This document shows, piece after piece, positions 12,679-22,294 of a stretch of 64,000 bases of DNA; within the stretch, counting starts at the first letter, position 1; every line of letters begins with the position of its first letter. The notes under the pieces are model-generated. The model searched no databases. It saw nothing but the letters and a program-made list of their open reading frames with translations, and was not told the DNA's origin. Position numbers and translations under genes: made by a program. The DNA lies in NCBI RefSeq assembly GCF_028596125.1, contig NZ_CP117229.1, forward strand, positions 2,712,001-2,776,000, in the 5' to 3' direction. The stretch is from Listeria innocua. GTDB taxonomy: Bacteria > Bacillota > Bacilli > Lactobacillales > Listeriaceae.

Positions 12679-13395
12679 TTATTCGATTGGTAATTTGTTG
12701 GGTGTTCCGGGTTTGCGCGGATATTTATTAGGGGTTTCTTTTGTTTTAGTGATGACGTAGATGTTTCGTTCGCTTTCTTCTACTGGTAATGCGAAAGCGA
12801 AATGTTCCTCGACTTTTCCGCCGAATAGTTTGATGGCTTTTTCGGCTGTTTGCAGCTCTTGTTCGGCTTGGGCTGCTTTCATTACTAGGAATGAACCGCC
12901 TTTTTTTACAAGTGGCATGCAAAGTTCGGATAATACGCTCATTCTTGCTACGGCACGTGCGGTTACAAGGTCGTATTTTTCGCGGTGCGCTTTGTTTTGG
13001 CCAAATGTTTCGGCGCGGTCATGGTAGAAATGCACATCGGTTAGGCCTAATTTTTCTGCTAGCGCGTCAAGGAAAGTCATGCGTTTTTTCAAGGAGTCTA
13101 CGATGCTTACTTTTAGATGCGGGAAGCAGATTTTAATTGGGAGACTTGGAAAACCAGCGCCAGCCCCGACATCACAAATAGTATCGAATTTAGTAAAGTC
13201 TACATAAAACGCGGCAGAAATAGAATCGTAAAAGTGCTTTAAATACACTTCTTTTTCGTCGGTAATAGCTGTTAAATTCATTTTTTCATTCCAGTCTACT
13301 AACATTTCGAAGTAATCATGGAATTGTTTCATTTGGTCGTCGCTTAGTTCTATTCCTTTTTCAGCGAGCGCCATTTGGAATTGCTCTGGATTCAT
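12679..13395 (-). CDS. rsmG: 16S rRNA (guanine527-N7)-methyltransferase RsmG
   Basis: A 238-residue SAM-dependent methyltransferase (GidB) that methylates G527 of 16S rRNA; loss gives low-level streptomycin resistance in other bacteria. Visible motifs: N-terminal [23 protein letters not shown] site [16 protein letters not shown] and [14 protein letters not shown]. The start has GAGG-type site nine bases upstream. In Bacillus rsmG directly follows mnmG; here the two are parted by the accessory insert, and rsmG has its own promoter within the insert boundary. Confidence 0.96.
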
Positions 13396-13547: not shown

Positions 13548-13826
13548 TTAACAATTATCAAACTTGTTGGCATTCTCTTTAAAACTTTTTTTGGCTTGAT
13601 TTACCCATTTTCCTTTTGCTGTGGTGGAAAGTCCATCTATGTAACCCTGACAATTGCTTTTGATATCGGCTATTTTGTCCCGCTTGATCATTTTTAACAT
13701 TCGTTTGCGATTTTCTGATGTTGCATGAGTTTGACTCGCCACAAACATCCCAATAAGATTTTTTTCTAGATTTCTGCGTGACTCTAATAATTCTGCTTTT
13801 AGTTTATCTATCATGTTATAGATCAC
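13548..13826 (-). CDS. Small helical protein, candidate LXG-partner (Lap1/TlaA-type)
   Basis: A protein of 92 residues (88 if the ATG at 13814 is used instead of GTG at 13826), predicted all-helical, with many Lys and Asn, one Trp (GKWVNQAKKSF) and no signal peptide. Size, helicity and place downstream of an LXG-type toxin are those of the small WXG100-like partners that guide LXG toxins to the type VII secretion system (DUF3130-like Lap1/TlaA proteins). I see no clear YxxxD/E or FxxxD signal at its C-terminus. Last gene of the toxin operon; overlaps its neighbour by 11 bases. Confidence 0.7.
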   Translation of the reverse strand: MIYNMIDKLKAELLESRRNLEKNLIGMFVASQTHATSENRKRMLKMIKRDKIADIKSNCQGYIDGLSTTAKGKWVNQAKKSFKENANKFDNC

Positions 13827-14181
13827 GATCCTTTTTTAGCTGATGTAGTTCTTCTTCATAAGAATTCGCTTGTTTCTTATAAAGTGCTTGATGCTCTTCG
13901 TGTTCATTTTCTAGTTTTGTTAGTGTTTTTTTTACTGTCCAATCGCCTTCTGCTTGGATAGAACTGATTAAATGGTAGGCTTTTTGCAAGTCTTCAGATG
14001 TTTCGTAATCTCTTTTTTGATGGATGTACCTGATTTGTTCAGAAAGGTTTTCTAGTTCTTGGTGAAACCGCCATTTTTCTTGGGATGCATCGTCCATCGC
14101 TTCATCCAATTGACGTCTTTTTCTATTAAACTCATCGTCCAAATTTTCTAGTTTTAGCAGTAGTTGTCTTTGTTTATCCAT
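13816..14181 (-). CDS. Coiled-coil protein, candidate LXG-partner (DUF3958-like)
   Basis: A 121-residue, very charged, all-helical protein with heptad-like repeats over most of its length (LLLKLENLDDEFNRKRRQLD; LENLSEQIRYIHQKRDYE; LEEHQALYKK). The pattern fits DUF3958/Lap2-type partners of type VII LXG toxins. It overlaps the end of the lipase gene by eight bases, so the two are translationally coupled. The partner role is inferred from architecture and position. Confidence 0.72.
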   Translation of the reverse strand: MDKQRQLLLKLENLDDEFNRKRRQLDEAMDDASQEKWRFHQELENLSEQIRYIHQKRDYETSEDLQKAYHLISSIQAEGDWTVKKTLTKLENEHEEHQALYKKQANSYEEELHQLKKDRDL

Positions 14182-15457
14182 ACATGCTCCCTATCTGTTT
14201 GGCTAATTCTTGGTCGGTTTTTAGCTGGCTTTTTATCGCTTCGTTGATTTGTTCTAGTAATTTATCATATTCTTGCTCTATCTTGGTTGCTTCGACTAAG
14301 GATTTTTCGCAATCTTGCACTGTGTCTATCACAATTTTCGGCTCAGTCGTCCCGCCCCAAGCAAGTGCGGCGAGTATTTCTGACTCAGATAGATTGGAGC
14401 CGATATCCCTTGCATCTGAAAGCGTATCGCGCCACAACTCTTCAGCATTCTCGATTTCTTTATCAAAAACATCTTTTAAAGCTCTAATTTCGACTTGAAT
14501 CGTTTGTTTCATCCCTTGCGTAATTGCTAGTGCTTCCGCTGCATCCAAGAATATTTCTTCGGATGAGGATAGGCCACCACCGCTTTTTGTAAAACTGGTT
14601 CGCATAATGTTGATTGCTGCTAATTGTTGAGCTGTTGCGTATTTGGCTAGTTGAAGGCTGCCTTCTTTATTTGTTAGAATGTTTCCTTCTTTGTCAAACT
14701 GATAACCACCCCACATATGCTGCTCAACCAAACCAGCTTTTTTCGACTCAACCTCTATTAAATGACCAATTGTCGGGTCTCCAGTACCATAACCAATTGC
14801 CACATAATCCTTCCTATCAATAAAATTAAATAATCTATCTAAAGCGTTTATTGCTTTTACGGTATCTTGTTGTTTTGGCGTTAGGTTGGAGTAGATATTC
14901 GGACCTTGGTAGAAGAAACCGCCGCTGATGCGTTTGATGTCTTTTTTATCTAAGTCTGCGATAGCGTACTGGGCGTTCATGGATCCTAGAGAATGGCCGT
15001 ATACATAGATTTGGGCGTTTGGGTAGAGTTTCATGGTTTGTTTTAAGGTTTCTGCAGAGGTTTTTAGTTGGGGTGTTACTGTGGATCCTCCGCCATGTGT
15101 AATTTGGATTGCGGTTGGAATATCATTTAAGCCCCAATCCGTCCACACATCAAGACTATCCTTATGAAATGGCGTAAGACCACTTGCCAGAGTGGGCGCA
15201 GTGGAACCTCTGTAAAGAATTGTTAACTCTTTTACTTTACTTCTCTCAATATGGGAAGCTGTGGGTGGCGTGTATTTTTCTGTGATGATATAGGTTTGCT
15301 GTCCGGCTGCTTTGTTGTTGATTGTTTGGGATACGATTCCTATCTTTTTTTCTCGATTGGATATTGAAATATTCACCTCCTTCTTAAGTTCTAGCTTACT
15401 GTACTCTTTTTTTGCCAATTCTACTCTTTCTTGATCAGTATTTACATGCCCCGTCAT
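14174..15457 (-). CDS. Type VII secretion lipase toxin with reversed LXG layout (TslA-like)
   Basis: A 427-residue protein. Residues about 45-260 form an alpha/beta-hydrolase class 3 lipase domain: nucleophile Ser156 in YVYGHSLGSMNAQ, likely acid among Asp214/Asp217 (FNFIDRKDYVA) and His247 in EQHMWGGYQF. Residues about 295-427 are a helical, coiled-coil-rich tail (EEIFLDAAEALAI to QELAKQIGSMYG) that looks like an LXG targeting domain placed at the C-terminus. This order, toxin first and targeting domain last, is that of S. aureus TslA. The start at 15457 has GGGAGGAG eight bases upstream, three bases after the upstream immunity-like gene. No Sec signal peptide, as expected for type VII export. 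Confidence 0.82.
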   Translation of the reverse strand: MTGHVNTDQERVELAKKEYSKLELKKEVNISISNREKKIGIVSQTINNKAAGQQTYIITEKYTPPTASHIERSKVKELTILYRGSTAPTLASGLTPFHKDSLDVWTDWGLNDIPTAIQITHGGGSTVTPQLKTSAETLKQTMKLYPNAQIYVYGHSLGSMNAQYAIADLDKKDIKRISGGFFYQGPNIYSNLTPKQQDTVKAINALDRLFNFIDRKDYVAIGYGTGDPTIGHLIEVESKKAGLVEQHMWGGYQFDKEGNILTNKEGSLQLAKYATAQQLAAINIMRTSFTKSGGGLSSSEEIFLDAAEALAITQGMKQTIQVEIRALKDVFDKEIENAEELWRDTLSDARDIGSNLSESEILAALAWGGTTEPKIVIDTVQDCEKSLVEATKIEQEYDKLLEQINEAIKSQLKTDQELAKQIGSMYG

Positions 15458-15459
15458 CA

Positions 15460-15846
15460 CTACTCCTCCCAACGACCTAATAGTTTAGAAAGCTTTTCAG
15501 ATACAACTGAAGCACCACCACTTAATTCTCCATTATTCTTGCTCAAGGTATATGATACATTTAGTTCTGAATCATTATTAATTATTAATTCGACTTCTAT
15601 ACCCCCCATTGGGTTGTGCTCTACGCTTCCTTCTTCAATTTTATAAGAATGAATTATACCTTTTTCTGTAAAAGCATTTGGATCTAAATTTGTTAACCTT
15701 TTTTTGAATACTTGTTTCGCTTCATCACTATAAACCACTTTCTTCATTTCTTTGTTTAATTTCTCTTCATCCATATAGAATTTCACCCCTAAACTAAAAA
15801 TGGTTATTACTGTAATTGCTAGTGCTATTATCCATCTTTTTTTCAA
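15460..15846 (-). CDS. DUF1310-like membrane-anchored protein 1, candidate immunity protein
   Basis: A 128-residue protein: short basic start, one transmembrane segment (WIIALAITVITIFSLGVKF, no lipobox Cys), then an extracytoplasmic domain with YSDEAKQVFKKRL, GIIHSYKIEEGSV, HNPMGGIEVELIINN and GELSGGAS. The domain looks cystatin-like, as in DUF1310. Start TTG with GAGGTGAAGAG upstream. Immediately precedes the lipase gene, so it may neutralise that lipase at the membrane, as TilA lipoproteins do for TslA. Function inferred. Confidence 0.8.
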   Translation of the reverse strand: MKKRWIIALAITVITIFSLGVKFYMDEEKLNKEMKKVVYSDEAKQVFKKRLTNLDPNAFTEKGIIHSYKIEEGSVEHNPMGGIEVELIINNDSELNVSYTLSKNNGELSGGASVVSEKLSKLLGRWEE

Positions 15847-15957
15847 CTCTTCACCTCTGCTGTATGCTTTTTATTTGTAGGTCTATTTTATCACATGTTA
15901 GAAATTTTCACTTTCTTTTTTTTCAGTCTTTTAATCGTCTCTTAGCTCTATAAAAAC

Positions 15958-16350
15958 TCATTTATATCCATTCAAAAGTCCCAATTTTTTTGTAAGCTCC
16001 TTAGATATGCTTGCTCCACCGCTCTTTAATTCTTTATTATTTTTCTTCAGTGTGTATGTTAATTTCAAAGCAGGATCCTTATTAATAACTAATGTAACTA
16101 TTATTCCACCCATTGGATTAGGCTCTATACTTTCCTCCTCAACTTCATATGACTGAATTATCCCTTCTTTTGTGAAAGCTTTCGTATCAATAAGTTTTAT
16201 ATCATCATTGAATACTTGTTTCGCTTCATCACTATAAACCAGCTTTCTCATTTCTTCGTTTAATTTCTCTTCATCCATATAGAATTTTACCCCTAAACCA
16301 AAAATGGTTATCACTGTAATTCCTAGTACTATTACCCATCTCTTTTTCAA
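15958..16350 (-). CDS. DUF1310-like membrane-anchored protein 2, candidate immunity protein
   Basis: A 130-residue paralogue of the neighbouring proteins: TM anchor WVIVLGITVITIFGLGVKF, then VYSDEAKQVFNDDIK, GIIQSYEVEEESI, PNPMGGIIVTLVIN and KSGGASISKEL. Start TTG with the same GAGGTGAAGAG site. The spacer upstream, including TATATGTTAGAAATTT and a T-rich tail, is repeated upstream of the first copy, so gene plus spacer was duplicated as a unit. Confidence 0.8.
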   Translation of the reverse strand: MKKRWVIVLGITVITIFGLGVKFYMDEEKLNEEMRKLVYSDEAKQVFNDDIKLIDTKAFTKEGIIQSYEVEEESIEPNPMGGIIVTLVINKDPALKLTYTLKKNNKELKSGGASISKELTKKLGLLNGYK

Positions 16351-16477
16351 CTCTTCACCTCTGTTGTATGACTTTTTATCTATGGGTTAATTTTATTATA
16401 TGTTAGAAATTTCCGCCTTCTTTTTTCAGTCTTTTTAACATCTATGATTAGTATTGGCGTAATTCATTAGCTCTCTT

Positions 16478-16855
16478 CTAGTCCATAAGAAGTTTATCAA
16501 GATTTCCCGATGTAACTGAAGCTCCACCGCTCAGTTCTCCATTAAAATTGTTCATAGTATATTTTATATATAATTCAGAATTTCCGTTTATAATTAATGT
16601 GACATTGATTCCTCCCATTGGATTTTTCTTTATACTTTTCTGATCTATTTCATACGATTGAATTATGCCTTTTTCTGTAAAAGCATCTGCATCCGCGGCT
16701 TTCAATCTGACTTCAAATACCTTTTTCGCTTCATCACTATAAATCACATTCATCATTTCTTTATTTAATTTCTCTTCATCCATATAGAATTTCACCCCTA
16801 AACCAAAAATAATCATTATTACAATTCCAAATAGTATTATCCATTTCTTTTTCAC
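16478..16855 (-). CDS. DUF1310-like membrane-anchored protein 3, candidate immunity protein
   Basis: A 125-residue paralogue, first in the operon: TM anchor WIILFGIVIMIIFGLGVKF, then IYSDEAKKVFEVRLK, GIIQSYEIDQKSI, KNPMGGINVTLIING and ELSGGASVTSGNL. Start GTG with GAGGTGAATGT upstream. It differs from the other two mainly in the middle of the outer domain, as expected if the copies guard against different lipase variants; that reading is inference. Confidence 0.8.
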   Translation of the reverse strand: MKKKWIILFGIVIMIIFGLGVKFYMDEEKLNKEMMNVIYSDEAKKVFEVRLKAADADAFTEKGIIQSYEIDQKSIKKNPMGGINVTLIINGNSELYIKYTMNNFNGELSGGASVTSGNLDKLLMD

Positions 16856-16880
16856 ACATTCACCTCTGTTCTATGTCTTA

Positions 16881-17030
16881 TATGTAATCCCATTTTACCT
16901 TATAGGTAGATAAGAAAAAACCACATTGTTCAGCGGAAATTTCAGACTTGGGTGGTAAGTTTGAAGTTTCCGTGAACAAGTGGTTTTGGTTGTAGTAGTA
17001 ATCCAATTTTCACTTACGTACTTTCGCAAT
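16881..17030. repeat. Direct repeat copy A flanking the AbiH/HEPN cassette
   Basis: About 150 bases matching 20275-20425 in the same orientation with scattered changes. It contains TATGTAATCCCAT, the long hairpin at 16917-16987, AGTAATCC, and at its right end the minus-strand codons ATT GCG AAA GTA CGT AAG TGA, which read IAKVRK-stop, a remnant of the MnmG C-terminus (IAKVSK-stop). Homology stops there. Confidence 0.88.
16917..16987. terminator. Long hairpin in repeat A
   Basis: Arms AAAACCACATTGTTCAGCGG and the complement of CCGTGAACAAGTGGTTTT form a stem of about 20 pairs with small bulges and a 27-base loop, flanked by A and T runs on both sides, so it could stop transcripts from either direction. 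Confidence 0.8.
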
Positions 17031-17085
17031 TTGATATTACTCAATACAGTCTAAATATTGAATTCCAATCACTTATAATATCATG

Positions 17086-18048
17086 TCAATTAAATTCAGA
17101 AAAAGAACCTAAAAATCCGCATTTTTTTATTTTCAGTTTAAACTCATTATGTTGTTGTCTGTCATAACTATGGAGATACCATATCATATTTTTAGAATTT
17201 AAATGTTTAAATATTTCCTTAAGATAAATCAAATCGACTTCTCCAAAAGAAAAACCGTATGAATAAATAGAATCAATTTCTCCCTCTAAGTTCTTAAAAA
17301 AATACGATTTTTCTTCAATAATTCTATCTGTTGGTTTCTTTAAAGTTTCATTCATAGTATTTATATAGGTATCTTGATGATAACTTTGTTCCTCTATTCG
17401 TGAGGTATTATTGTGACCTAACACAGGGGAAGTTTGATTTCCATGTATGTGCGTAACATTCTCTGCCTCATATAGATTTTCCAGAGTCTCTGTATAATTA
17501 AAAGTTAGAAAAACATCATGTTCTTTGTCAATTAATTCTAAAATAGAATAATAGTTATCTAAATTGAACACAGAAAAGCAATTTTCCAGAATAGGGATAT
17601 TATTTATCCATTCAGAGAAAAGCTCAGGTAATTTTAACATTACATTACTTAAATCATTATATGCATCTTCATAATTATTTCCCGTATGAAAAGGATTTAT
17701 ATCCCCTTCCTTATCATATTGAATTTCTATATCCTCTTCTAGCAAAGAATAATCAAAACGCCCAATAGCTCTTTCAAAATCACTCCAGTTCTCTCCTTCG
17801 TCTTCAGAACCAATCCTTAAACAACTATCACAAATCATAAAATCAATTATTTGTGCACAATCTTCAATTTTATAACATATCTCACCATCGTAATCTGTAG
17901 AAGCAGGTAACCACAGACTAGGATATACATCGTGTTCATATAAATATGTACATCTAAGATACTCTTTAAAATGATTAAAAGTAGATGGAACTCCATGCGC
18001 TAAATCAAACCCGTTCCCTATAATAAACAACTTATTTATACTGCTCAC
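17086..18048 (-). CDS. AbiH-family phage abortive-infection protein
   Basis: A 320-residue protein with the AbiH pattern: nucleotide-fold motif KLFIIGNGFDLAHG (residues 7-19), NWSDFE (87-92), FLTFNYTETLENLY (180-193) followed by THIHG (199-203), and IYSYGFSFGEVD (261-272). AbiH was first described as a lactococcal abortive-infection gene; its fold is related to SIR2-like nucleotide-binding proteins. It starts at GTG, three bases after the stop of the upstream 663-codon gene, so the two form one operon. It is AT-rich compared with mnmG and rsmG and is flanked by direct repeats, which suggests recent transfer. Confidence 0.87.
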   Translation of the reverse strand: MSSINKLFIIGNGFDLAHGVPSTFNHFKEYLRCTYLYEHDVYPSLWLPASTDYDGEICYKIEDCAQIIDFMICDSCLRIGSEDEGENWSDFERAIGRFDYSLLEEDIEIQYDKEGDINPFHTGNNYEDAYNDLSNVMLKLPELFSEWINNIPILENCFSVFNLDNYYSILELIDKEHDVFLTFNYTETLENLYEAENVTHIHGNQTSPVLGHNNTSRIEEQSYHQDTYINTMNETLKKPTDRIIEEKSYFFKNLEGEIDSIYSYGFSFGEVDLIYLKEIFKHLNSKNMIWYLHSYDRQQHNEFKLKIKKCGFLGSFSEFN

Positions 18049-18051
18049 TCC

Positions 18052-20043
18052 CTATCTCTCGTTAAGGATCAGTTCCTCGTTTATTTTAATAATATATACT
18101 ACTAAGACGATTAGTAAATAAAAATAATCATCCTCGTTTTCGTCTACAATAGATCCATGTGAATATTTGTTTCTTATACCCAATGCATTGTCAAATTCAG
18201 AATTATTAAGGATGTAGTTTAGATAGTCTACCTCAGGTTTGGCAAAAAAAGTATTCTCATAAATTAATAATTCCTCTTCAATCATTTCATCTATCTCTTG
18301 TTGTTGATATGTCAACTCTTTATTAATATCCAGTTTTTTATTCGAATGGTAATAATGAATAACCCCATATTTATAAATATTAGAAAAAATACGGATTCGT
18401 AATAACTGCTTTTCAGTTATGAATATATCTCCTTTTTTATCAATCGAAATAATATAATTATCAAGTAAAAATTCAATATCTAATCGTTGATAATTATGAA
18501 AATCATCTTTTTTAATTTTATTATTAACTATTAGTTCTACAAAATTATCTCCATTTGTCTCTTTAGTTATATACGTTATATGTGATTGATCTGAAAAAAG
18601 TAAATACATAACTCTGAGAATGGCTTTATTATTCTGATTTATATATATATATTTCCTGTCTAATCTACTCTTTAACGACTTAAGCGTTGGCGTTTCTTCT
18701 AGTTCGAATAATTCTTTATCTATTTCATTTTCCTCAATATATAGTTTCCATTGTTTTCTTAATTGTTCCTCTATAGTAACTAAGTTTTTAGTCTGAATAT
18801 GAATTTTTTCTGACTTGTTCGTAAAATCTATTGGTAGCCAGTTTACAAGAAAGTATTCCTTACTATATTCTGAAAAAAAGTAAACTATCAGTTCTTCTAT
18901 TCTTATATCAAAAATCTCTTGTAGTTTATCCTGATATATTTTAAAGCTTATTAACATCAAGATATTTTTACCATTGAAATAAAAACTTGTTTCATAATTT
19001 TTTTTAGTATGAATCCCCAATAACTTTTTCATTAAAGTTGAACTTTCGATGTTAGGAAAACTACATAAATTTAAAATCCAATTTCCTGTGAAAAAACCAT
19101 TAAAATACATCATATACTCTAATAAATTTTCTTTGGATTTTTCTTTTTTTAAATAGTCAATGTCAATTAAGTTTTTAAAATCTTCTTTCGCCATATCATA
19201 CTTTTCTTTGTCTGAATAAATAACTATTGATTGCTCTATTCCATTATTTGCATTGCCATTTTCATCACTAAAAATTTTCTTCTCTATTTGCGCACATCTT
19301 TTCCTAGACTTTAATTTTAATTTAGCATCAATTTGAAGTTCCTTAACACCTTGAATTCCTTGCCCAACCAAATAAAGATAATTTAAATCAGCTGCCTCAC
19401 CCTTTATATATAGTTTGCAAAGATTATACATTTCATCTTTCGTAATGTTGTTAGGAATAAAATACCTAGTTTCACTAGGAGTATAGTTATCTAAAACTAA
19501 TTCGAAATTTCTTGCTTTCGCAAGAAATATATCCTTTATTACAGTAGGATAATGTTTCACAAAATAATTAGTTTTCAAAAAATATTCAACAGGGATTTCG
19601 TGTTCTTTAAAAAAGCCTCTCATGTCATTTCCACTAATTTTCGCATCTAATTTATACTTTTCAAAGCATTCTAAAAAGTCTTCTTTATAAAGAGTGTCAC
19701 TATACTTGTCCATATCAGTATATTTTACTACATTTCCACCTAAATCCGGATTATTTTGAGCAAAAAAATAATCAAAAAATTCTAAAATATCTTGTTTTGA
19801 TAACTCTCGGAAAAATTGATTAAGTTTTCTGTTAAGTATACTCTTAGTCTCTTTAATCTGCTTATCTGATAAATTGACAGGATAAGTTTCTTTACTCATG
19901 AATTTCAAAATATTATATACTTCTAGCATATCCAAAAGATTGTTTGTTTCTATGTCTTCACTAGACTCGATAAGTTCTTTCAGCCTCTTAAAATGATAAC
20001 CGCTAGATATATCTGATGAACTATAAAATTTAATCCGTTCCAT
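18052..20043 (-). CDS. Large protein with C-terminal HEPN-type RX4H motif, AbiH partner
   Basis: A 663-residue, Lys/Asn/Ile-rich cytosolic protein that I do not recognise as a whole. Near the C-terminus, LGIRNKYSHG has Arg624 and His629 in the RX4H spacing of HEPN RNases, followed by a long hydrophobic helix (DDYFYLLIVLVVYIIKINEE) as in HEPN four-helix bundles. The rest (about residues 1-560) shows mixed helix and strand with no obvious catalytic motif. ATG start with AAAGAGGTG nine bases upstream; first gene of the pair. RNA cleavage or abortive infection together with AbiH is a hypothesis. Confidence 0.75.
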   Translation of the reverse strand: MERIKFYSSSDISSGYHFKRLKELIESSEDIETNNLLDMLEVYNILKFMSKETYPVNLSDKQIKETKSILNRKLNQFFRELSKQDILEFFDYFFAQNNPDLGGNVVKYTDMDKYSDTLYKEDFLECFEKYKLDAKISGNDMRGFFKEHEIPVEYFLKTNYFVKHYPTVIKDIFLAKARNFELVLDNYTPSETRYFIPNNITKDEMYNLCKLYIKGEAADLNYLYLVGQGIQGVKELQIDAKLKLKSRKRCAQIEKKIFSDENGNANNGIEQSIVIYSDKEKYDMAKEDFKNLIDIDYLKKEKSKENLLEYMMYFNGFFTGNWILNLCSFPNIESSTLMKKLLGIHTKKNYETSFYFNGKNILMLISFKIYQDKLQEIFDIRIEELIVYFFSEYSKEYFLVNWLPIDFTNKSEKIHIQTKNLVTIEEQLRKQWKLYIEENEIDKELFELEETPTLKSLKSRLDRKYIYINQNNKAILRVMYLLFSDQSHITYITKETNGDNFVELIVNNKIKKDDFHNYQRLDIEFLLDNYIISIDKKGDIFITEKQLLRIRIFSNIYKYGVIHYYHSNKKLDINKELTYQQQEIDEMIEEELLIYENTFFAKPEVDYLNYILNNSEFDNALGIRNKYSHGSIVDENEDDYFYLLIVLVVYIIKINEELILNER

Positions 20044-20274
20044 ACTATACTCACCTCTTTTTAAATTTATTTTAACAAATCGTTAAATATTATAAGAAAT
20101 AAGTTTCTTCTCTTACTCTTATAATAATATCAGTTCTTGAATTATCTTCAATAGCTTTTTCACGCACTTACTGTAGATTATATTTCTTCATCTATATTGG
20201 ATGTCATTCTCTAAGAAAATAATTACTCTCAACGCTTTAACCGATTTCTTTTTCATCTCTAGTATGCCTTCTTC
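20044..20274. other. Intergenic region upstream of the AbiH/HEPN operon
   Basis: AT-rich and non-coding. It must carry the operon promoter: a minus-strand TATAAT occurs at 20089-20094, but I see no convincing -35 at the right distance. No other feature recognised. Confidence 0.4.
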
Positions 20275-20425
20275 TATGTAATCCCATTCTACCTTAATTA
20301 AAAACAAGAAAAAACCACATTATTCAGCGGAAACTTTCAACTTAGATGGTAAGTTTGAAGTTTTCGTGAACATGTGGTTTCAGTTATTATAGTAATCCGT
20401 GTTCTTATTTACTTACTTTCGCTAT
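20275..20425. repeat. Direct repeat copy B (mnmG 3' end and terminator)
   Basis: Second copy of the repeat, same orientation as 16881-17030. Its right 21 bases are the true last six codons and stop of mnmG; the rest is the mnmG 3' flank with the terminator hairpin. Confidence 0.88.
20309..20383 (-). terminator. mnmG terminator hairpin (in repeat B)
   Basis: Arms AAAACCACATTATTCAGCGG and TTTTCGTGAACATGTGGTTT pair over about 20 positions with minor bulges; followed by TTTTTTCTTG on the minus strand. Lies 20 bases after the mnmG stop. Confidence 0.82.
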
Positions 20426-22294
20426 CTTCCCTTGCTCGATGTAAACTAGCAATATAGATATATCGGCTGGGTTTACCCCGCTGATACGGCTCGCTTGGGC
20501 GATGGAAAGGGGTTCGATTTTCTTTAGTTTTTCTAGGGCTTCTGTTGCGAGGCCGCTGATTGCATCATAATCGATGTTTTCTGGGATTTTTTTGTCTTCC
20601 ATGCGTTTCATTTTTTCTACTTGAAGGTTTGATTTTTGGATGTAGCCTTCGTATTTAATTTGAATTTCTACTTGTTCAGCGATTTCGTCGGTCACAAATG
20701 TTTCACGTGAAACAATTTGGGCGATTTTGTCGTAAGTTATTTCTGGGCGACGAAGTAAATCTGCTGCTAGAATTCCGTCTTTTAGTTCACCTGAGCCGAT
20801 TTCTTTTAACATTGCTTGAACTTCAGCAGTTGGTTTAATGCGTGTTTTTTGTAGTCTTTCTTTTTCTGCTTCAATCGCTCTTTGTTTTGCTAAAAAGCGT
20901 TCATAACGTTCGTCGCTAATTAAGCCGATTTCGTGACCGATTTCTGTTAAACGTAAATCTGCATTATCATGACGTAATAGTAAACGGTATTCGGCGCGAG
21001 ATGTAAGTAAACGATATGGTTCTTCGGTTCCTTTTGTTACTAAATCGTCAATTAAAACGCCGATATAAGCTTGATCGCGACCGAGGATAACTGGTTCTTT
21101 TTCAAAAACTTTGCGTGCTGCGTTGATTCCTGCCATTAAGCCTTGGCCGGCTGCTTCTTCGTAACCACTTGTACCGTTAATTTGGCCGGCTGTGAAAAGT
21201 CCTTCAACTAATTTAGTTTCAAGTGATGGCCACAGTTGGTCTGGCATAACTGCATCATATTCGATAGCGTAGCCAACACGCATCATTTCTACATTTTCAA
21301 GTCCCGGAATAGTTCTTAGCATTTCGCGTTGCACTTCTTCTGGCAAACTGGTGGAAAGACCTTGGACATATACTTCTTCGGTGTTTTTGCCTTCTGGTTC
21401 AAGGAAGATTTGGTGTCTTGGTTTGTCGCTGAAACGAACAATTTTATCTTCAATGGATGGGCAATATCTTGCGCCAGTGCCTTTTTTCGTTGCTGTAAAC
21501 ATTGGTGAACGGTGTAAGTTCGCTTGGATTATTTCGTGAGTTGTTTCGTTTGTATAAGTTAACCAACACGGTAATTGTTCTAGCATCATTTCTACTGTAT
21601 CAAAACTAAATGCGCGCGGATGATCGTCACCCGGTTGTTCTTCTGTTTTTGAATAGTCAATCGTACTTGATTTTACACGCGGTGGTGTTCCTGTTTTAAA
21701 GCGGCGCAGTTCAAAACCTAGTTCTTCCAAGTGCTCTGAAAGTTTCACAGATGGTTGTTGGTTGTTCGGACCGCTGGAATAGCGCAGTTCACCGACAATA
21801 ATTTCGCCACGTGAGAAAGTTCCGGTAGTAATAACGACTGTTTTCGCGTAGTAAATTGCACCACTGTTTGTAATAACGCCTTTACACACGCCATCTTCAA
21901 TCACTAAACGGTCAACAAGACCTTGGCGCAAAGTGATATTTTCTTCTTTTTCAATCGTGTGTTTCATTTCGTGTTGGTAATCCCATTTGTCTGCTTGGGC
22001 ACGTAATGCGCGAACAGCGGGACCTTTACCTGTATTTAGCATCCGCATTTGAATGTAAGTTTTGTCTGTATTACGGCCCATTTCTCCGCCAAGTGCATCA
22101 ATTTCGCGCACAACTACTCCTTTTGCTGGGCCTCCAACAGAAGGATTACATGGCATAAAAGCGACCATATCTAAATTTATCGTTAACATCAGCGTTTTGG
22201 CGCCCATTCGACCACTGGCAAGACCTGCTTCTACTCCCGCATGGCCTGCACCAACAACGATGACGTCAAAAGTTCCTGCATCATAGGTTTGCAT
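20405..22294 (-). CDS. mnmG: tRNA uridine-5-carboxymethylaminomethyl synthesis enzyme MnmG (GidA)
   Basis: A 629-residue FAD enzyme that, with MnmE, modifies U34 of tRNAs reading two-codon boxes. FAD motif [20 protein letters not shown] at the N-terminus, MnmG signature [14 protein letters not shown] and [15 protein letters not shown] [11 protein letters not shown], and [16 protein letters not shown]. Length is normal. It lies 25 bases downstream of mnmE in one operon. A perfect parS lies inside (20699-20714). Its last codons are repeated at the far end of the AbiH/HEPN cassette. Confidence 0.97.
20699..20714. promoter_or_regulatory. parS: parS site 3 (within mnmG)
   Basis: Exact TGTTTCACGTGAAACA inside mnmG. 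Confidence 0.97.

Follow-up and report, generated by a model that had tools for sequence, protein, structure and literature searches.

A stretch of 64,000 nucleotides from Listeria innocua (assembly GCF_028596125.1, contig NZ_CP117229.1, positions 2,712,001 to 2,776,000; hereafter the window) carries a cassette of two genes, which encode a 663 amino acid (aa) protein of the PADLOC family PDC-S56 and, 3 bp downstream, a protein of the AbiH family (Table 1). At a probability of roughly 55 %, we consider the two genes to have been acquired horizontally, to be transcribed together and to act against phages by abortive infection, with a sensor-RNase and a Sir2-like AbiH, both from families that are usually solitary, standing side by side. 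Both families are known or catalogued, and what looks new is only their pairing. The two open reading frames (ORFs), their strand and their three-base gap are as the initial annotation of the window had described them, and so are the tight coupling and the AT-richness of the genes (GC content of 26 % and 29 %, versus 38 % for the window).

According to the preferred reading, PDC-S56 would combine a sensor made of helical repeats with an RNase of the HEPN type, and during infection it would recognise a phage product and cut RNA in response. AbiH would serve as a Sir2-like effector, with the loss of NAD+ as a second growth-stopping activity, and RNA cutting and NAD+ loss together would abort phage replication. 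We infer that the pair functions in phage defence, that PDC-S56 acts as an RNase and AbiH as a NADase, and that both belong to one pathway. The initial annotation had proposed that AbiH is a nucleotide-binding sensor feeding the HEPN protein; since the AbiH model is Sir2-like, the role of a second effector appears likelier.

Table 1. Features of the cassette and of the flanking direct repeat (window coordinates)
Feature	Position	Strand	Description
PDC-S56 family gene	18052..20043	-	ORF, 663 aa; N-terminal helical-repeat region and C-terminal HEPN-like region
Helical-repeat-like N-terminal part, possible sensor	19270..20010	-	residues 12–258
Second HEPN-type motif, [E/D]x3K	18754..18768	-	residues 426–430 on helix 414–438; conservation and modelled helix
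Winged-helix-like insertion	18256..18651	-	residues 465–596, between putative HEPN helices; modelled secondary structure
RX4H motif, RNKYSH	18157..18174	-	residues 624–629; conserved, helix 623–628 in the model
Spacer between PDC-S56 gene and abiH GTG	18049..18051	-	3 bp, GGA in the window
abiH	17086..18048	-	320 aa, GTG start; Sir2-like, predicted NAD-binding
AbiH GNGFD (Sir2 GxG position)	18004..18018	-	residues 11–15; each kept in 37/37 sequences with a residue there (n = 38)
AbiH Asn184 in FNYT, candidate Sir2-type catalytic Asn	17497..17499	-	38/38 sequences
AbiH His202-Gly203, candidate Sir2-type catalytic His	17440..17445	-	38/38 sequences
Duplicated mnmG/DUF1310 spacer, upstream copy	20270..20398	.	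direct repeat D3, 82 % over 129 nt
Duplicated mnmG/DUF1310 spacer, downstream copy	16876..17004	.	direct repeat D3

Families and predicted domains of the two proteins

The large protein, which had been regarded as unassignable, matches the PDC-S56 profile of PADLOC-DB 2.0.0 over its full length (PDLC05039, residues 2–662, E 9.7e-122), a family listed there as a phage-defence candidate. Pfam and NCBIfam gave no family above cut-off, NADAR being rejected at E 0.08, far under its cut-off, and a PDB sequence search with single proteins and profiles returned no match. The protein search yielded 56 matches at E ≤ 0.001 from 7999 scored candidates, including the window's own entry; the named homologues come from Listeria, Enterococcus, Vagococcus, Pediococcus, Breznakia and a Saccharibacteria bacterium, the nearest being a Listeria seeligeri protein (P0002, 75 %). 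Conservation was assessed in an alignment (A2) of the window protein and 52 homologues (n = 53), from which its own entry (P0001) and P0023–P0025 were left out.

PDC-S56 is putatively a HEPN-type RNase. The RNKYSH motif pointed out in the initial annotation (Arg624-His629) is present, with R624 kept in 50/51 and H629 in 51/51 of the aligned sequences that have a residue there, although a single RX4H alone means little, as 0.29 such motifs are expected per shuffled protein. In the second motif, position 426 is E or D in all 53 aligned sequences and K430 is kept in 50. The AlphaFold2 (AF2) model (predicted local distance difference test, pLDDT, 88.3; predicted template modelling score, pTM, 0.84) places C-terminal helices at residues 414–438, 602–612, 623–628 and 637–662. 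The last of these had been described as a long hydrophobic helix; it is indeed modelled as one helix, with a maximum 19-residue hydropathy of 1.95, but it may equally well, or better, be the closing helix of a HEPN bundle rather than one that spans a membrane. The insertion at residues 465–596 gives a weak HTH_69 match in two of the 53 members and is mostly absent from the plasmid homologue L117. The matches listed by structure comparison (VIA) of the model are helical-repeat, 14-3-3 and similar proteins and span residues 1–343 at most; no HEPN entry is among those listed, which does not speak for its absence, and the four-helix HEPN fold, named in the initial annotation as a test of the proposal, is accordingly a putative one.

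The identity of AbiH is confirmed by a full-length match to PF14253 (E 1.1e-52; 180.1 bits versus a cut-off of 30.9), although its sequence is distant from the AbiH profile in PADLOC (E 3.9e-16). The AF2 model (pLDDT 90.6) is matched in the PDB by Sir2-type proteins, SIR2/HerA and KomBC among them, and has the Sir2 Rossmann fold. AbiH is predicted to bind NAD+ and would probably hydrolyse it. We take GNGFD, N184 and H202 to be the counterparts of Sir2 residues, an equation based on the Sir2 motif rather than on a residue alignment, and N184 and H202 may accordingly be assigned Sir2 chemistry. One AbiH homologue, P0097, has a C-terminal extension, NNWRSSHAYPL, that looks like the first residues of a RelA/SpoT-type domain and may mark an AbiH-alarmone-synthetase fusion.

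Coupling of the two genes and rival explanations

PDC-S56 was found in 15 of 295 genomes of the order, in four further genomes from the family of the Enterococcaceae genome G251 (8/105 there), in two further genomes from the phylum (3/299) and in four from five public contigs. In the total of 25, L032 (Enterococcus canis) and G259 are counted once, and several of the PDC-S56 copies are fragmentary or split. Three of these genomes (the window genome, G013 of the same genus and G251) have AbiH next to PDC-S56, one (G296) has it elsewhere, and in 21 it was not found; one AbiH search behind the last figure also missed its controls and does not prove absence, the same model having matched in other searches.

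All three pairs have the 3-bp spacer (GGA in the window and G251, GAA in G013) and the GTG start of abiH. The protein identity between the genus and Enterococcaceae copies is 62–77 %, AbiH of G251 being 77 % identical to that of the window. Recurrence of the pair elsewhere had been set beforehand as a test on which the proposal could fail, and the pair does recur in G251, a member of another bacterial family. Among 31 AbiH loci, at least 76 % identity to the window AbiH is seen in three (its own counted), and these are exactly the ones with PDC-S56 in their 1.5-kb flanks; the next-nearest full-length AbiH is 49 % identical and has no PDC-S56 in flanks of that length. Within the 105 Enterococcaceae genomes, close AbiH occurs only in G251, G633 having distant pieces. 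The coupling of PDC-S56 and AbiH is real but was observed in one close group only.

Plasmid records with PDC-S56 relatives number five, or eight when P0003 is the query. In the three of the five that were inspected (two searched whole, one by annotation within 6 kb), no complete AbiH was found beside the PDC-S56 relative; NZ_CP042292.1 contains a 39-position AbiH fragment approximately 6 kb away. A set of 50,697 phage records, searched for PDC-S56 only, gave no match; among viral contigs none was confirmed for A3 or P0003, and the AbiH pattern search gave no match.

Several results weigh against the preferred reading. AbiH is not beside PDC-S56 in 22 of the 25 genomes, and of the 30 AbiH-bearing genomes among the 295 of the order, three have PDC-S56 and 27 lack a match; hence, neither family needs the other in general. 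The former count, together with the existing PDC-S56 catalogue entry, also speaks against the earlier description of the system as undescribed. PDC-S56 of G251 is broken into two frames, and between the two genus copies its ratio of nonsynonymous to synonymous substitution rates (dN/dS) is 0.46, indicating weak constraint, albeit from just 37 nucleotide changes; the value for AbiH is 0.14, from 30 changes. At the profile level, PDC-S56 has only a weak similarity to DUF4209, a HEPN family (probability 1–14 %, E 0.042–0.002; 22 % for residues 590–663 alone), and the alignment is limited to the RX4H end and does not include helix 414–438. Because only the RX4H part was covered, equating that helix with the Ex3R helix of DUF4209 is a guess without support. 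In an hhalign control, residues 411–465 joined to 590–663 scored 25.8, compared with one value of 27.7 and a next-highest of 17.8 among 60 column shuffles, and two N-terminal blocks gave 0.2 %. DUF4209 (PF13910) matched two of the 53 members at E ≤ 0.05 (best E 0.021); membership was rejected, as the window protein itself gave no match to this Pfam family, and DUF4209 is kept as the nearest HEPN family.

The main rival, possible but on balance rather unlikely, is that two independent single-gene systems merely share an operon, with PDC-S56 as sensor and RNase by itself, AbiH as a Sir2-type effector by itself, and the spacing a matter of shared expression. Such independence would agree with the two families being found mostly apart, with the separate listing of PDC-S56 in PADLOC, with the description of PDC-S families as single-gene candidates (PMC12988326), and with the narrow phage protection that an AbiH system provides in S. 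thermophilus (PMC12322248). However, the 3-bp spacing and GTG start kept at 62–77 % protein identity argue against it, as does the finding that close-type AbiH occurs only alongside PDC-S56 in the genomes searched.

It is doubtful, although conceivable, that the two proteins make up one Sir2-HEPN machine of two parts, both being needed, with PDC-S56 detecting the phage and thereupon activating AbiH as a NADase. The conserved coupling of the genes favours such a machine, and other Sir2 defence proteins (SIR2/HerA, KomBC) have been solved in complex with a partner, yet each partner also occurs alone. The version in which PDC-S56 would itself cut RNA as well, so that a single trigger would hit both RNA and NAD+, seems a shade more doubtful. 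A toxin-antitoxin-like pair, with AbiH modifying or restraining a HEPN toxin as in nucleotidyltransferase/HEPN modules, is very improbable despite the HEPN-type motifs and close two-gene coupling, because the many PDC-S56 genomes without adjacent AbiH imply that it is no obligate antitoxin; the MNT/HEPN class was rejected, as AbiH models as Sir2-like and not as a minimal nucleotidyltransferase.

Insertion site and genomic context

The cassette is flanked by mnmG (20405–22294) on one side and rsmG (12679–13395) on the other, genes whose names we take from recognition of their sequences alone. The two genes of the cassette are presumably co-transcribed as an operon; a promoter scan was uninformative (28 sites versus 24.9 expected), and no RNA family reached the gathering score in 15400–20500. 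In the genus, PDC-S56 occurs in 2 of 25 genomes. The mnmG-rsmG interval was compared in 12 of the 25 genus genomes (excluding that of the window): nine carry one to six DUF1310 genes and a lipase-like gene, two have rsmG directly after mnmG and one has fragments only. One of the nine, G013, also has the cassette in the same place, with proteins 96 % identical. The duplicated spacer is single-copy in relatives without the cassette, which may have inserted by recombination at the mnmG/DUF1310 spacer and is likely to have been acquired horizontally. No transposon or integrase ORF was recognised between mnmG and rsmG in the ORF list.

Within the duplicated spacer, AAACCAC...GTGGTTT forms an inverted repeat with a T after it; the terminator scan does not list this repeat, as it allows only shorter loops. 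The variable mnmG-rsmG locus (window 13548–16855 and loci L100–L111) comprises two small genes, a lipase-like protein of 432 aa that stays under the cut-off of the SA1320 family, and one to six DUF1310 paralogues of approximately 125 aa with repeated leaders, an arrangement that resembles a toxin with an immunity-gene array.

At other PDC-S56 loci, nine neighbours from seven loci were scanned, and since they were chosen for their defence-like look, no rate of defence association can be derived from them. Among them are a PtuA/PDC-M01A-like ATPase (L003), a TIR protein near the CAP12 type but under the Pfam cut-off (L018), a ThsB TIR encoded on the opposite strand (L005) and, at a distance of about 1.5 kb from the PDC-S56 gene, AbiC (L117); at L008, PDC-S56 lies between a type I methyltransferase and PDC-S06. 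In Breznakia, a gene on the same strand as PDC-S56 and approximately 0.5 kb upstream of it (L030:3106-4458) encodes an RX4H motif of its own (RNHVAH) and has only a weak PDC-M34B match. The scan gave nothing for either neighbour protein at L034. Several further loci have only ordinary or mobile-element neighbours. The defence role proposed in the initial annotation is supported by association. Three PDC-S56 loci on Enterococcus plasmids also have a serine-recombinase gene, immediately ahead of the PDC-S56 gene (L005, L006) or about 1 kb past it (L117).

Relation to known systems

PDC families are guilt-by-embedding candidates, most of which await validation (PMC12988326). The name PDC-S56 was not found in the main text of the literature searched, supplements not being covered, and the AbiH-PDC-S56 pair is not described in the AbiH and PDC-S literature searched, a body of work with preprints and most subscription papers outside its coverage. 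The natural pair offers candidate catalytic residues in both proteins (AbiH N184/H202 and PDC-S56 R624/H629), testable in one construct, and raises the questions of whether AbiH is a NADase, whether PDC-S56 is an RNase and whether the two cooperate. A Sir2-HEPN system, if true, would provide mechanisms for AbiH and PDC-S56 at once.

To our knowledge, the known partners or fused domains of Sir2 defence proteins (SIR2/HerA, KomBC, ThsA, DSR2, AVAST5) differ from the HEPN-like PDC-S56. The large protein resembles the C6orf70/DUF4209 HEPN family in its length of about 600 aa, its C-terminal RNx3HG motif and its Ex3R motif, but differs from it in the winged-helix-like insertion and in matching only weakly at the profile level. 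The PADLOC PDC-S56 shares the same full-length profile but is catalogued as a single-gene candidate, whereas here AbiH follows 3 bp downstream, although adjacency by itself does not make AbiH a requirement for PDC-S56 to work; and the abortive-infection AbiH of Lactococcus belongs to the same Pfam family over its full length, whereas here the gene lies downstream of one encoding PDC-S56.
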